From Clostridia bacterium (GTDB lineage Bacteria > Bacillota > Clostridia > Oscillospirales > Acutalibacteraceae), in contig JAFURT010000004.1 of assembly GCA_017471765.1 (NCBI GenBank), positions 1 through 36,937 on the forward strand: a stretch of DNA of 36,937 nucleotides, written 5' to 3'. The stretch's first letter is position 1. Each line of letters starts with the position of its first letter. Made by a program: the position numbers and the translations under genes. Shown piece by piece: positions 27,184-31,293 of the stretch. Below the pieces are notes generated by a model. It was not told where the DNA came from. It worked only from the letters and a program-made list of their open reading frames with translations, and did not search any database.

Positions 27184-27243
27184 CACTTTTTTGTGCTTTT
27201 TCGGAAAAAATATGCGGTTTCATTTTGTCAAGGATGAACAACC

Positions 27244-27591
27244 AATAAGAATCCCCCGGCTTAGCCGGGGGTTTTCCGTATGCGGGCAAAGCCCTACGAT
27301 ACTAGCGGCGCACAAGTGCGCTTAAATTTACCGACACTTGCGCACGAAAGGTCTGCAGAAAGCCACGAAGGCTCCCCTTGAGGACGCAAGGGGAACTGGC
27401 GGCGCCAGCCGACTGAGGGGATTTGAAAAAGAACACAACCCCTCCACCGCCGTTTGGCGGTCCCCCTCCCCTTACACAGGGGAGGCACCCTCTCCGTCAT
27501 GGCTGTGCCGTGACACCTCTCCCAGAGGGAGAGGCAAGAGAACGCTGAAAGCTATACAGAACCCCCGGCACTGCCGGGGGTTTTCAATTAC
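27244..27591. repeat. Composite dispersed repeat, copy 1
   Basis: A non-coding block that recurs at 30962-31293 in the same orientation. It opens with hairpin CCCCCGGC-TTA-GCCGGGGG and closes with CCCCCGGCA-C-TGCCGGGGG. It contains GCGCACAAGTGCGC and an inner unit with terminal repeats GGCTCCCC (27370-27377) and GGGGAGGC (27479-27486). Shared stretches include GTCTGCAGAAAGCCACGAAG and the GGCGGCGCC palindrome region. This copy alone carries a 20-nt hairpin (27496-27515) flanked by direct repeats CCTCTCC. Apart from the promoter at 27155, the gap 27035-27663 holds no gene; the frames across it are incidental. Confidence 0.85.
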
Positions 27592-27636
27592 AAAAAAGTT
27601 TGCCGCCATGGGCAAAAGAGCCTATGGCGGCAAAAG
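27592..27636 (-). terminator. Terminator of the cohesin/binding-protein gene
   Basis: On the minus strand TTTGCCGCCATAGG pairs with CCCATGGCGGCAAA around an 8-nt loop, followed by CTTTTTT. It directly abuts the end of repeat copy 1. Confidence 0.85.
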
Positions 27637-27663
27637 ATAACAAGGTATTCTTTTTTTGGGGGG

Positions 27664-29829
27664 TTACACACCGGAGAAATCCCACTGCTTCAGCACGGCC
27701 TCTAACGAAGCTTTTTTATTCTTCAGCACCGTAGACCACGTGTTGCCGTTGGAGATAACCTCGGTGATGCCGGGGAACTGGACGCTGCCAACCCAGCCGC
27801 CCCACAGGTTGTTGGCCACCACGTCATAGCCCTGGCTGAGCATCTCCTGGGTGTACTGGATCTCCGCCGCCGTCAGCGTGCCTCCATTGACATCCATCTT
27901 CTCGCCGAACTCACGGGTATAGGCGGTGTCGGTGAAGGGCAGATACTCGTTCAAGGGGTAGTTCAGGAACGCCCACTTGCGGAGTTCAATCAAATAAGCG
28001 GCCCCCTCGGGGTTTTTGGCGCCCTTCACCAGGCCGAAGGTCTGCTGCAGGTTAACATTGTAATAGTGCTTGGACGTGTCATCCAGCTTGGGTAAAATGA
28101 CCCACTCCAGTTCGCCCCTCTCACGGGCGGCGTTCATCTCATTGGTCATCGCCCAGCCGGCGGTCTGCGCCATGGCGACGGTGCCCTTAGCCACACCCGT
28201 GGGAGCATCAAAGCCAGCGGACCTGGTGCCCTTGACACCCATATTGTACATGATATTCATCAGAGTCTTATACTTGGTGTTGGAGATGTTCAGCTTGTAG
28301 CCGTAGGTCCGGTTATACTCCACCAGCTCCAAACCGGTGATGGCACCGATATTGCCGGGCACGAAGCCAAGACGAGTGACATTGCCACTATCATCAATGG
28401 CTACCAGCGCATTGGCCATTTTCTGCAACGCCGTCAGCGTCCACTTGCCCTCACGCCACAGTTCCAGGGGGGTCTCCAGAGCATATTGCTTGAAAAGCTC
28501 GGGGTTGTAGTACACGAACTCGGCAATCTGCATATACTCCACCGAGAAGAAGGTCTTGCCGTTGATCTGGTACTTGGCAGTCAGTTCACGGACATCGTCC
28601 CAGATAGGGGCGGAGAAATCAATGTAAGCGTCAATGGGCACCACCAGCCCGGACTCGATGGCCGCCGGATACATCTGGGTGGTGTTCCACTCCACCAGGT
28701 CAGGACTGTCACCGGAGGCCACCGCCACAGCCAGTCTGTCCACATAGATATCGTGGGTAGCCTGATACCACTTGGTCTCCAGGCCAACCTTGTTGTACAC
28801 CTTCCGCATATCCGGCTTGGAGGCACCATAGCAGTTTTCCGACTGCTGGTCACGCCAGGAGAAAACGGTCACCGTCTTGTTCTTCAGGTCGCGGGTGGGC
28901 ATGGGGATATTCTGGGGATCACTTGGGCTTGTGGTATTACTGGTCGTGGTCGTCGCTACTCCGGTAGTATTTCGTTGTGTTGTGGTGGCCGCTTTAGAAG
29001 TAGTCATTGTGGTAGCATAGCTACCTGCCGCGGTGGTTTTGTTCGCCGCTGATGTGGTATAGTCATCGCCGCCTGCCGTGGTGGTGGTGTTGGTCACGGT
29101 CAGTCTGCCGGTGGCCGGCATCCAGGACAGGGGGTAGTTTTCCGACAACATCACGTGGTACAGCAGATAGATGGCGTCATCCGTCGTGGCCATCCCATCC
29201 CCATTCAGCTCCAGCGGCTGGGCCACCGAGTATACCTCCGGCAGCATCAGGCGATACAGCAGGCAGATGGGGTCCATGGGCTCCAGTACGCCGTTGCCGT
29301 CTATATCTCCGGGAATCCCCACAGTGATGGAGCCGGCGGTGGCTGTCACATCCACATTGCACTCACGGCCGTCTGCCAGCCGTTTTTTGGCGGTTGCCTG
29401 ACAGCTCACAGGCAACACCTCGCCATAAGGCACCGTCTCCTTAATACGGAAGGTCAGGGTGAACACCACCTTGGCCACGTCGGTATTCTCCTCGAAGGCG
29501 ATCACCGCCGCTTCCATGTCCTCATCCCAGTGCGCCAGGCTCTGCCCCATCTCCGCCCACTCGCCGGAAACCAGTTCCAGCTTCTTGCGGTTATAGGTCA
29601 GCCCGGACAGGGACAGGGCCTTCAGGTTGCCGGTGCTCTGCACGCCCAGGTGGAGCTGCACCGTCTCCCCGGCCTGTGCGACACAGTTGGCGACATTCAG
29701 CCGTGCCTCGTCCTCCGATACGGAGCTGGCCACAGCCGGCGTCGCATCTCCCACGGCAAACACCATCATCGGTACAGCCGCCACAGCTACGACCACCGCC
29801 AGCACAGCGGATAACCAGCGTTTTTTCAT
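27664..29829 (-). CDS. Secreted cohesin-dockerin-solute-binding-protein chimera
   Basis: The 721-residue protein reads in order as a signal peptide (1-25), a cohesin-like beta-sandwich (about 42-170: QAGETVQLHLGV, YNRKKLELVSGEW, VVFTLTFRIK, TAGSITV), a type-I dockerin-like pair (174-233: GDIDGNGVLEPMD with LLYRLML; LELNGDGMATTDD with LLYHVML), a Thr-rich linker (246-305) and a family-1-type extracellular solute-binding protein (312-721: VTVFSWRDQ, ASGDSPDLVEWNT, FYYNPELFKQY-like, WAFLNYPL). The first dockerin loop has ideal Ca2+ positions (Asp175, Asp177, Asn179, Asp186). No lipobox is present and no ABC permease genes adjoin. ATG 29829 has AGAGGGG 7 nt upstream. Confidence 0.82.
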   Translation of the reverse strand: MKKRWLSAVLAVVVAVAAVPMMVFAVGDATPAVASSVSEDEARLNVANCVAQAGETVQLHLGVQSTGNLKALSLSGLTYNRKKLELVSGEWAEMGQSLAHWDEDMEAAVIAFEENTDVAKVVFTLTFRIKETVPYGEVLPVSCQATAKKRLADGRECNVDVTATAGSITVGIPGDIDGNGVLEPMDPICLLYRLMLPEVYSVAQPLELNGDGMATTDDAIYLLYHVMLSENYPLSWMPATGRLTVTNTTTTAGGDDYTTSAANKTTAAGSYATTMTTSKAATTTQRNTTGVATTTTSNTTSPSDPQNIPMPTRDLKNKTVTVFSWRDQQSENCYGASKPDMRKVYNKVGLETKWYQATHDIYVDRLAVAVASGDSPDLVEWNTTQMYPAAIESGLVVPIDAYIDFSAPIWDDVRELTAKYQINGKTFFSVEYMQIAEFVYYNPELFKQYALETPLELWREGKWTLTALQKMANALVAIDDSGNVTRLGFVPGNIGAITGLELVEYNRTYGYKLNISNTKYKTLMNIMYNMGVKGTRSAGFDAPTGVAKGTVAMAQTAGWAMTNEMNAARERGELEWVILPKLDDTSKHYYNVNLQQTFGLVKGAKNPEGAAYLIELRKWAFLNYPLNEYLPFTDTAYTREFGEKMDVNGGTLTAAEIQYTQEMLSQGYDVVANNLWGGWVGSVQFPGITEVISNGNTWSTVLKNKKASLEAVLKQWDFSGV

Positions 29830-29870
29830 ATGCAACCCCTCTTTCACCATAAAATGGCTATACTGGTTTA

Positions 29871-29899
29871 ATTATACCTCCGTTTCACTGAAATTGCAA
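29871..29899 (-). promoter_or_regulatory. Promoter of the cohesin/binding-protein gene
   Basis: On the minus strand TTGCAA (29894-29899), a 17-nt spacer and TATAAT (29871-29876), 42 nt before the start. It is back to back with the promoter at 29937. Confidence 0.85.
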
Positions 29900-30006: not shown

Positions 30007-30909
30007 ATGAAACGATCTTGGCTTGCACGGCTGGCGCTGGTTCCGGCGCTGGCACTGGTGCTGACCGGTTGCCGGGGTGAGGACAAGCCCGACGCTCCCA
30101 GCGGTTCCTCGGAGCCGACTGTCACCACCGCCACCGGCACCTATGCCGGGCAGAACGTGACCCTTTCTCTGGTTAAGGAGACAGACTACCCCACCGACCA
30201 GGACGGTCTGTACTTCCACAACGGCTATGTGGTCTTCCTCAACATCAGCGAACGGGATGATATCGATGGGCTGGAGAACAACTACACCTGCCTGGATGCC
30301 GGTGCCAACCACATTTTCACCGTTGCCTCCACCGATATTCTGCACATCGGAGACAACAACTGCACCTACGTCACCACCGAGGACGGCTCCTATCGCCGGG
30401 TCAATCTCAACGGCGATATGACCGAGGTGGACGAAGAAGAATACATGAATGCCGTATCCGCTATGTATGAGACACTCACCTGGGAGCAGACGCTGTACGG
30501 CACCTTCCAGCAGGTCACCAGCGACAGCGGCAAACCTTGCTACCGGCTCACCCAGGTCGATGGGACGCCCGCCGGCGATTTCCCCACCGACGAGGGACAG
30601 CCCACCCTCCTGAATGAGAAATTAGTAACCACCTGCACGGAGGACGGCAAGCATTACCTCTACGGCTATGACGGCAAACGCATTTACGAAGAGAGCTTCG
30701 AAAATATCGGCACCTTCTACAACGGCCTGGCTCCCTTCTGGCAGAACGGAAAACTGGGTCTGCTGGGCGAGGACGGCAGCGTGGTTATTCCGGCCACCGT
30801 GCACAGCCCCATCTACTCCATCTCCACCGTCTACTTCAACGAGGATATGCTGGCCGTGGTCAACAGCGAAACCTCCCATGTTTCCATCTACAAAGTGACC
30901 CGCACATAA
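30007..30909 (+). CDS. Lipoprotein with WG-repeat-like C terminus
   Basis: The 300-residue protein has a signal peptide with lipobox LVLTGC (lipidated Cys22) and a Ser/Thr/Pro-rich spacer, so it should be tethered to the outer face of the membrane. The rest is strand-rich with many Asp, Tyr and Gly turns. Near the end, FYNGLAPFWQNGKLGLLGED and GSVVIPATV match the WG/KWG repeat pattern (one clear repeat, with a weaker EDGKHYLYGYDGKRIYEE before it). Function is unknown; WG proteins are generally taken as beta-propeller or binding modules. It is divergent from the cohesin/binding-protein gene and may share its regulation. ATG 30007 has TTAGGAGG upstream. Confidence 0.82.
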   Translation: MKRSWLARLALVPALALVLTGCRGEDKPDAPSGSSEPTVTTATGTYAGQNVTLSLVKETDYPTDQDGLYFHNGYVVFLNISERDDIDGLENNYTCLDAGANHIFTVASTDILHIGDNNCTYVTTEDGSYRRVNLNGDMTEVDEEEYMNAVSAMYETLTWEQTLYGTFQQVTSDSGKPCYRLTQVDGTPAGDFPTDEGQPTLLNEKLVTTCTEDGKHYLYGYDGKRIYEESFENIGTFYNGLAPFWQNGKLGLLGEDGSVVIPATVHSPIYSISTVYFNEDMLAVVNSETSHVSIYKVTRT

Positions 30910-30948: not shown

Positions 30949-30961
30949 CTGTATATGGACA

Positions 30962-31293
30962 AATAAGAATCCTCCGGCTTAGCCGGGGGTTTTCCGTATG
31001 CGGGCAAAGCACTACTACACTAGCGGCGCACAAGTGCGCTCAAATTTATCGACATTTGCGTACGAAAGGTCTGCAGAAAGCCACGAAGCCTCCCCTTGAG
31101 GACGCAAGGGGAGCTGGCGGCGCCAGCCGACTGAGGGGATTTGAAAAAGAATACAACCCCTCCACCGCCGTTTGGCGGTCCCCCTCCCCGACTTCGCCAC
31201 AGCGAATGTCGAACACAGGGGAGGCACCCTCTCCCAGAGGGAGAGCGCTGAAAACTATACGGAACCCCCGGTACTGCCGGGGGGTAAATTACA
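30962..31293. repeat. Composite dispersed repeat, copy 2
   Basis: This is the second copy of the block at 27244-27591, in the same orientation and diverged at scattered bases. Its inner unit has perfect terminal repeats GCCTCCCC (31088-31095) and GGGGAGGC (31218-31225). It lacks the 20-nt hairpin of copy 1. Instead it has a different extra hairpin GACTTCGC-CACA-GCGAATGTC (31190-31210) at a place where copy 1 has none. The gap 30910-31333 holds only this repeat and two terminators. Confidence 0.85.

Follow-up and report, generated by a model that had tools for sequence, protein, structure and literature searches.

Cohesin and dockerin modules joined to a sugar-type solute-binding protein in a single predicted polypeptide of a Clostridia genome

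The gene described here lies at positions 27664..29829, on the minus strand, of the window, by which we mean the whole stretch of 36,937 nucleotides of DNA from an uncultured Clostridia bacterium that was analyzed (contig JAFURT010000004.1). The window's own genome is designated G000, the window's contig C31 and a sister genome G008. An uninterrupted open frame of 721 codons and a stop runs from the start at 29829 to the end at 27664, and its predicted product consists, from the N- to the C-terminus, of a signal peptide, a cohesin, a dockerin, a threonine-rich linker and a complete solute-binding protein (SBP). A ribosome-binding site, AAAGAGGGG, was read from the sequence at 29836..29844 (minus strand), six bases before the ATG, and a consensus scan detected a sigma-70-like promoter, TTGCAA-17-TATAAT, at 29871..29899 (minus strand; 10 of 12 matches). 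The same scan gave five promoter-like sites in the region, the mean for shuffled sequences being 1.9. Because the start is preceded by both signals, the gene looks like a unit of its own.

The Sec-type signal peptide, with a basic start, a hydrophobic core and the end VFA, covers approximately residues 1-25 (29755..29829; this and all the following domains on the minus strand), its cleavage site having been placed by eye. On inspection of the sequence no lipobox was found in the protein, the first cysteine being residue 49. The cohesin was assigned to residues 46-170 (29320..29694), the dockerin to approximately residues 173-235 (29125..29313), the threonine-rich linker, as read from the sequence, to approximately residues 236-308 (28906..29124), and the sugar-type SBP domain to residues 309-721 (27667..28905). 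When the whole 721-residue protein was compared with Pfam and NCBIfam, nothing scored above any cut-off, and the domains were therefore excised before scanning. Weak matches to DUF7831 and DUF6297, below the cut-offs of these families, were set aside, and a reading of the gene as part of a defence system was dropped, PADLOC having given no match.

Judged by profile comparisons, the SBP is the firmest part of the assignment. As a single sequence, it matched the solved sugar-binding proteins 5ysb, 4r9f and 4g68 (the best three E-values being 5.3e-5, 8.2e-5 and 2.5e-4), and a profile of its family reached 5f7v (1.5e-18), 4r9f (1.9e-14) and, at E<=0.001, a further 214 solved sequences. At the protein level, the domain is 81% identical to a 547-residue lipoprotein SBP encoded on contig C4 of the same genome, 67% identical to a protein on C34, 73% and 69% identical to two proteins in G008, and 29-32% identical to four tandem copies on C39; all of these relatives have a lipoprotein-type signal peptide followed by a threonine-rich linker. 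In a tree, the window SBP and the four closest lipoproteins, from G000 and G008, form one group (100/99 support), within which the exact branching position of the window SBP is not settled. The domain is under purifying selection, with a dN/dS of 0.21 relative to the C4 protein (0.15-0.24 for all ten pairs) and of about 0.16 on its own branch when distances were split using the G008 C18 protein as the third point. A scan of genome_contigs added one relative, the sister-genome lipoprotein, and a scan of viral_contigs for further alignable relatives gave none.

A lipobox-type pattern was matched by 20 of 24 SBP relatives scanned, and two more (L045 and L020) have a cysteine after a hydrophobic stretch that the pattern missed. 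The remaining two, L081 (235-2373) and L082 (244-2343), from another family of the order, have three N-terminal SLH domains (PF00395, E ~4e-29) and no lipobox, and their SBPs are 24-25% identical to that of the window over about 150-190 residues. As these two carry SLH domains instead of a lipobox, the exchange of a lipid anchor for a protein anchor has probably happened at least twice, in different ways, within this SBP family; the SLH-bearing relatives thus suggest repeated anchor swapping. The surroundings of the lipoprotein relatives can also be described. The C39 locus (L037 1582-14162) holds seven or more lipoprotein genes in tandem, among them four for SBPs of this family, with no permease matches inside the array, and very large proteins are encoded directly upstream of SBP lipoprotein genes at L069 127-7569 (2480 residues, ending by eye in a membrane helix) and L035 1600-7428 (1942 residues). 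None of these large proteins obtained a Pfam name above cut-off.

The excised cohesin scored 24.7 bits against PF00963, the cut-off being 24.1, and 24.4 bits in the genome scan. This Pfam support is marginal, since hmmscan of the full 721-residue protein did not list the cohesin even at E<=1, and is strengthened by the 40-46% identity that the domain shares with the cohesins in three further proteins from the genus. A seven-row genus cohesin profile also reached the solved cohesins 5nrm (7.5e-6, over the first third of the domain only) and 1g1k (1.3e-5). No match to PF00404 (type-I dockerin) was obtained for the excised dockerin, nor at the window in the genome scan. The domain contains two 12-residue calcium-type loops, DIDGNGVLEPMD and ELNGDGMATTDD, and can be aligned with 14 further dockerins from the genus, giving a 15-row family with the signature DAIYLLYH..LP..YPL. 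The profile of this family, A3, gives the window dockerin 100.7 bits, by construction, the domain being one of its rows; it also retrieves the solved dockerins 2y3n_B (2.2e-6, in two short pieces), 3ul4_B (5.5e-5, positions 2-55) and 1daq (9.5e-5), and plain EF-hand proteins rank behind these (0.007). By its duplicated calcium-type loops and this profile link, the module appears to be dockerin-like in the wider sense. The original prediction of a cohesin, a dockerin and a complete sugar-type SBP within one polypeptide without a lipobox was thus borne out, by PF00963, the dockerin family profile and the SBP profile respectively; profile searches sustained the cohesin just above the Pfam cut-off and the dockerin through the lineage profile, PF00404 having missed it.

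The window dockerin is the most divergent member of its family, departing from it at eight of 28 conserved columns, whereas the next four rows depart at four each. In the first repeat it has P for A (A in 14 of the 14 others), C for Y (11 of 14), R for H (12 of 14), L for T (14 of 14), S for P (11 of 14) and N for D (12 of 14); in the second repeat it has E for D at loop position 1 (14 of 14) and, near its end, S for P (14 of 14). As the departures are concentrated in the first repeat, one of the two binding faces may have been lost, or its specificity may have changed. These departures, twice as many as in any other of the 15 rows and including the Asp to Glu change in the second repeat, would also fit a redundant or decaying paralogue, in which the fusion is real, the dockerin no longer works and the product is a minor secreted SBP; the 81% identical lipoprotein in the same genome points the same way. 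We consider such decay rather unlikely, because the frame is intact, a promoter-like site and a ribosome-binding site are present, the dN/dS of the SBP is 0.21, and the helix DDAIYLLYH of the second repeat is kept. In type-I dockerins a single face suffices at any one time.

Cohesins joined to a dockerin of the window type were found in three other proteins of the genus (C5, C19 and G008 C4), in all of them as C-terminal cassettes: the C19 and C5 pairs end BspA-type leucine-rich repeat (LRR) proteins, and the G008 C4 pair ends a 500-residue protein. In other genera of the order, the pair is also found close to the N-terminus of other proteins, where it immediately follows the signal peptide (L053, L089 and L091). 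At L090 (2604-4054), two tandem genes encode small secreted proteins with hardly anything besides a signal peptide and a dockerin, to which a cohesin is added in one of them; the pair alone makes up a 219-residue protein there. Since the closest relatives of the SBP are lipoproteins, and cohesin-dockerin pairs recur on other secreted proteins, the gene is, as far as sequence comparison can tell, a fusion joining a recurrent cohesin-dockerin cassette to a former lipoprotein.

The joined architecture was searched for in three overlapping genome sets, each including the window's own genome, by whole-protein searches from which distant fusions could escape at this sensitivity. It was detected in one of 60 relatives (up to 18 candidates scored per genome), one of 394 genomes of the order (two candidates scored per genome, among the matches listed) and one of 398 genomes of the phylum (two candidates scored per genome), in each case the window's genome. 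Because only two candidates per genome had been scored in the order and phylum searches, every candidate was scored in a further search of 27 genomes of the order, chosen for their cohesin-dockerin matches; among the matches listed, none spanned both halves, and no SBP match stood beside a dockerin match in one frame. In the literature, with subscription sources mostly outside reach, no title or abstract opening pointed to a fusion of a cohesin or dockerin with an SBP, and in the accessible parts of PMC8542988, PMC4300822 and PMC6628489, SBPs and dockerins appear only separately. The combination therefore looks new from these searches, and the rarity expected in the original prediction was confirmed within their sensitivity.

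As the fusion is known from a single metagenome-assembled genome (78.6% complete, 41 contigs) and was not found in the nine other genus genomes searched (66-94% complete), the joining of a cohesin-dockerin gene to an SBP gene by the assembler has to be weighed. In eight elongation factor EF-G loci from other genus genomes, no relative of the fusion gene was found near EF-G; the decarboxylase neighbour is shared by the G008 locus alone among the eight, and there another gene occupies the place between EF-G and the gene for the decarboxylase subunit, which counts in favour of a chimera. At the junction, however, the longest exact words shared between the region of residues 171-330 and 14 loci of the same genome measure 24 nt (located in the SBP) and 21 nt (located in the dockerin), and in a genome-wide DNA comparison similarity to the SBP relatives on C4 and C34 does not set in before about codon 306-309, so that the linker offers no long repeat on which an assembler could slip. 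Moreover, the frame is kept, the GC contents of the cohesin (0.63), dockerin (0.59) and SBP (0.57) are not far apart, and a signal peptide directly before a cohesin-dockerin pair also occurs in other genera. On this evidence, we regard a chimera as improbable.

The fusion gene and its divergent neighbour are enclosed by two direct repeats of 231 nt, 95% identical to each other, at 27241..27471 and 30959..31189 (both on the plus strand). This neighbour (30007-30909, plus strand) encodes a lipoprotein-like protein of 300 residues with no Pfam match. The repeats contain a terminator-like stem-loop, and the stretch 27235-27640 has 11 DNA matches in the genome, the query itself included. This arrangement suggests either that the gene pair arrived as a block or that the repeats mark a spot of possible misassembly outside the gene; the 231-nt repeat is possibly a small mobile or recombining element.

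Scans of G000 gave six cohesin matches, in six different proteins (the fusion itself and those on C41, C3, C26, C5 and C19), 11 matches to the window-type dockerin (one partial) and 36 matches to the permease domain PF00528. No multi-cohesin scaffoldin was found, and in a genome 78.6% complete one could be missing. Window-type dockerins were matched six times in G008, and in the eight other genus genomes five had none and three had one or two each (four matches in all, one with E 6e-4). Five of the G000 dockerin proteins were scanned (767, 944, 679, 369 and 514 residues) and gave SH3, LRR, LRR, nothing and transglutaminase, respectively, with no glycoside hydrolase (GH) domain on any of them.

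The genus-wide cohesin census comprised 25 profile matches in ten genomes, of which 23 were found again as frames; the two weak matches G004:C46 and G007:C4 were not, and were left out. A dockerin is present in the same protein in five of the 23, none of which ends in a membrane helix: four have the window-type dockerin (the fusion, C5, C19 and G008 C4), and the fifth, L114 (1-891, plus strand), ends in a dockerin that by eye looks canonical and differs in type from that of the window. Among the other 18 cohesin proteins, simple hydropathy placed a terminal membrane helix in 12, mostly followed by a basic tail; four are cut by a contig end (L100, L110, L111 and L113) and two have no helix (C26 and L099). 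Directly before nine of these 18, on the same strand, lies a dockerin gene (L103 being borderline, E 3.7e-4). The resulting cognate-looking unit of two genes, for a secreted dockerin protein and then a cohesin protein, is seen at L009, L097, L098, L099, L102, L103, L104, L105 and L107, with a C-terminal membrane helix on the cohesin protein in all but L099. The cohesins of L106 and L108 follow genes ending in a stretch that is dockerin-like by eye and was not called. The same arrangement, dockerin protein and then membrane cohesin, was also seen outside this family, elsewhere in the order (L091 and L093). This gene order is circumstantial evidence that dockerins in the genus hold secreted proteins at the membrane. 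Of the idea of display on a cellulosome-like complex, display at the surface by cohesin and dockerin is therefore supported, by the membrane cohesins of the genome and the gene pairs of the genus, and a cellulosome proper is not, given six cohesins in six proteins and no GH domain on the five dockerin proteins scanned.

Two membrane cohesins, C41 and C3, are encoded in G000. The C41 cohesin protein has 294 residues and a C-terminal membrane helix, and it is the candidate receptor for the fusion because it is the nearest membrane cohesin to that of the window (27% identity, compared with 16% for C3). The C3 cohesin gene lies behind a gene for a protein with a canonical dockerin (PF00404), and its product is probably the partner of that protein.

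None of the 36 PF00528 matches lies on the contig of the window; all are elsewhere in the genome, and the absence of permease genes noted in the original prediction was thus confirmed. The missing permease does not set the fusion apart, because the C4 and C34 lipoprotein relatives likewise lack an immediately adjacent permease gene. On the contig of the C4 relative, a GH95 gene (Pfam) lies upstream of it, with two permease pairs further up, and the C29 relative adjoins permeases; the SBP family is thus a transport family. The suggestion that the protein concentrates sugars at the substrate and does not pass them to a transporter may hold, but we do not favour it, as permease domains are encoded elsewhere in the genome. 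A related alternative is a secreted adaptor, not mainly bound to the cell and with no role in transport, in which the SBP would act like a carbohydrate-binding module (CBM) and the protein would bring a dockerin protein, bound by its cohesin, to oligosaccharides or glycan ends. Such an adaptor would agree with the presence of both cohesin and dockerin, with the missing lipobox, with the contig free of permeases, and with the very large Pfam-less proteins beside lipoprotein relatives, one of these relatives lying in a stretch with the GH95 gene; yet the SBP belongs to a family of transport proteins, and a surface partner is at hand in the membrane cohesins C41 and C3 and in the 12 of 18 genus cohesin proteins described above. 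We therefore see it as a less probable alternative.

SBPs of Gram-positive bacteria are normally tied by a lipid to the membrane near their importer. The explanation that we prefer, with a probability of roughly 0.5, is a lineage-specific fusion in which this lipid anchor was exchanged for a cohesin-dockerin tether to a membrane cohesin, leaving a free cohesin arm and handing the sugar on to a permease. According to this explanation, the gene of a surface sugar-binding lipoprotein would have undergone duplication, and a Sec signal peptide with a cohesin-dockerin cassette would have taken the place of its lipoprotein signal peptide. The dockerin of the secreted product would then dock onto a membrane-anchored cohesin, the C41 protein being the candidate, and the SBP, on its flexible threonine-rich stalk, would capture oligosaccharides near the cell surface. 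The N-terminal cohesin could hold one further dockerin-bearing surface protein, making the protein an adaptor of one cohesin and one dockerin with a sugar-binding cargo, and the captured sugar would probably be passed to a permease encoded elsewhere.

Several observations weigh against this explanation: the occurrence of the fusion in one incomplete genome and in none of the nine others of the genus, the divergence of its dockerin with a possibly lost or altered binding face, the identity of only 27% between the C41 and window cohesins, and the lack of a dockerin gene directly before the C41 gene. In addition, cohesin-dockerin specificity is not readable from sequence here, and a structure prediction of the whole protein from a two-row alignment (its own sequence and the L069 SBP) reached a mean pLDDT of 30.

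Two further arrangements of the same modules were considered. The dockerin might bind the cohesin of its own chain, so that the pair would be a rigid stalk and not a connector. In the four remaining rows of the pair alignment, cohesin and dockerin adjoin each other likewise, which speaks for such a lock, but the cohesin ends a mere four residues or so before the first calcium loop, which would leave little slack for docking in cis, and the structure model is not usable at its mean pLDDT; we consider the lock very improbable. Alternatively, the proteins might assemble themselves into a surface chain, with a membrane cohesin as starter, head-to-tail cohesin-dockerin links and dockerin-only ends, displaying the SBP in place of a lipid anchor. 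This tentative proposal, to which we assign a low probability, is based on the modules encoded in G000. Three cohesin-dockerin proteins (the SBP fusion and a pair of LRR proteins) belong to one subfamily, which has eight additional dockerin matches, one of them partial, in proteins that gave no cohesin match; G000 also has one membrane cohesin without an adjoining dockerin gene. If true, it would represent a modular "plug-in" form of solute capture. More generally, if the SBP plugs into a cohesin-dockerin network as in the preferred explanation, sugar capture itself could be modular in the way that cellulosomal enzymes are, and cohesin and dockerin would serve as a general code for surface attachment in gut Clostridia that have no classical cellulosome.

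Among the known systems, the sugar-binding proteins of ABC importers (5f7v, 4r9f, 5ysb and 4g68) are homologous to the SBP domain of the fusion. The relatives found here are mostly lipid-anchored, whereas in the fusion cohesin and dockerin modules stand where the lipobox would be; it therefore shares homology with importer SBPs, but neither the lipoprotein anchor nor adjoining permease genes. The SLH-anchored SBPs L081 and L082 resemble it in having a protein anchor instead of a lipobox, the anchor being SLH domains and not a cohesin-dockerin pair. In its composition of one cohesin and one dockerin, the fusion corresponds to the ScaC-type adaptor scaffoldins of Ruminococcus flavefaciens, which likewise combine both modules in one secreted protein and bridge a scaffold and a dockerin protein (PMC5301203, PMC4959524). 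The ScaC-type proteins differ from it in that the accessible parts of these sources name no SBP in them, and in that they belong to a proven cellulosome whose partner specificities were measured. Dockerin proteins of R. flavefaciens FD-1 that are not enzymes include LRR, transglutaminase and serpin proteins (PMC2930009), and in G000, too, dockerins occur on LRR and transglutaminase-type proteins. The words "solute", "ABC transporter" and "sugar-binding" are absent from the accessible parts of the FD-1 dockerin inventory, which contains 118 proteins with unknown regions, so that an unrecognized SBP among them is possible (PMC2930009). Finally, CttA of R. flavefaciens is a glycan-binding protein held on a surface cohesin through a C-terminal dockerin dyad (PMC5301203); in the accessible parts of that source it is described with CBMs and with no mention of an SBP, whereas the protein presented here carries an SBP.

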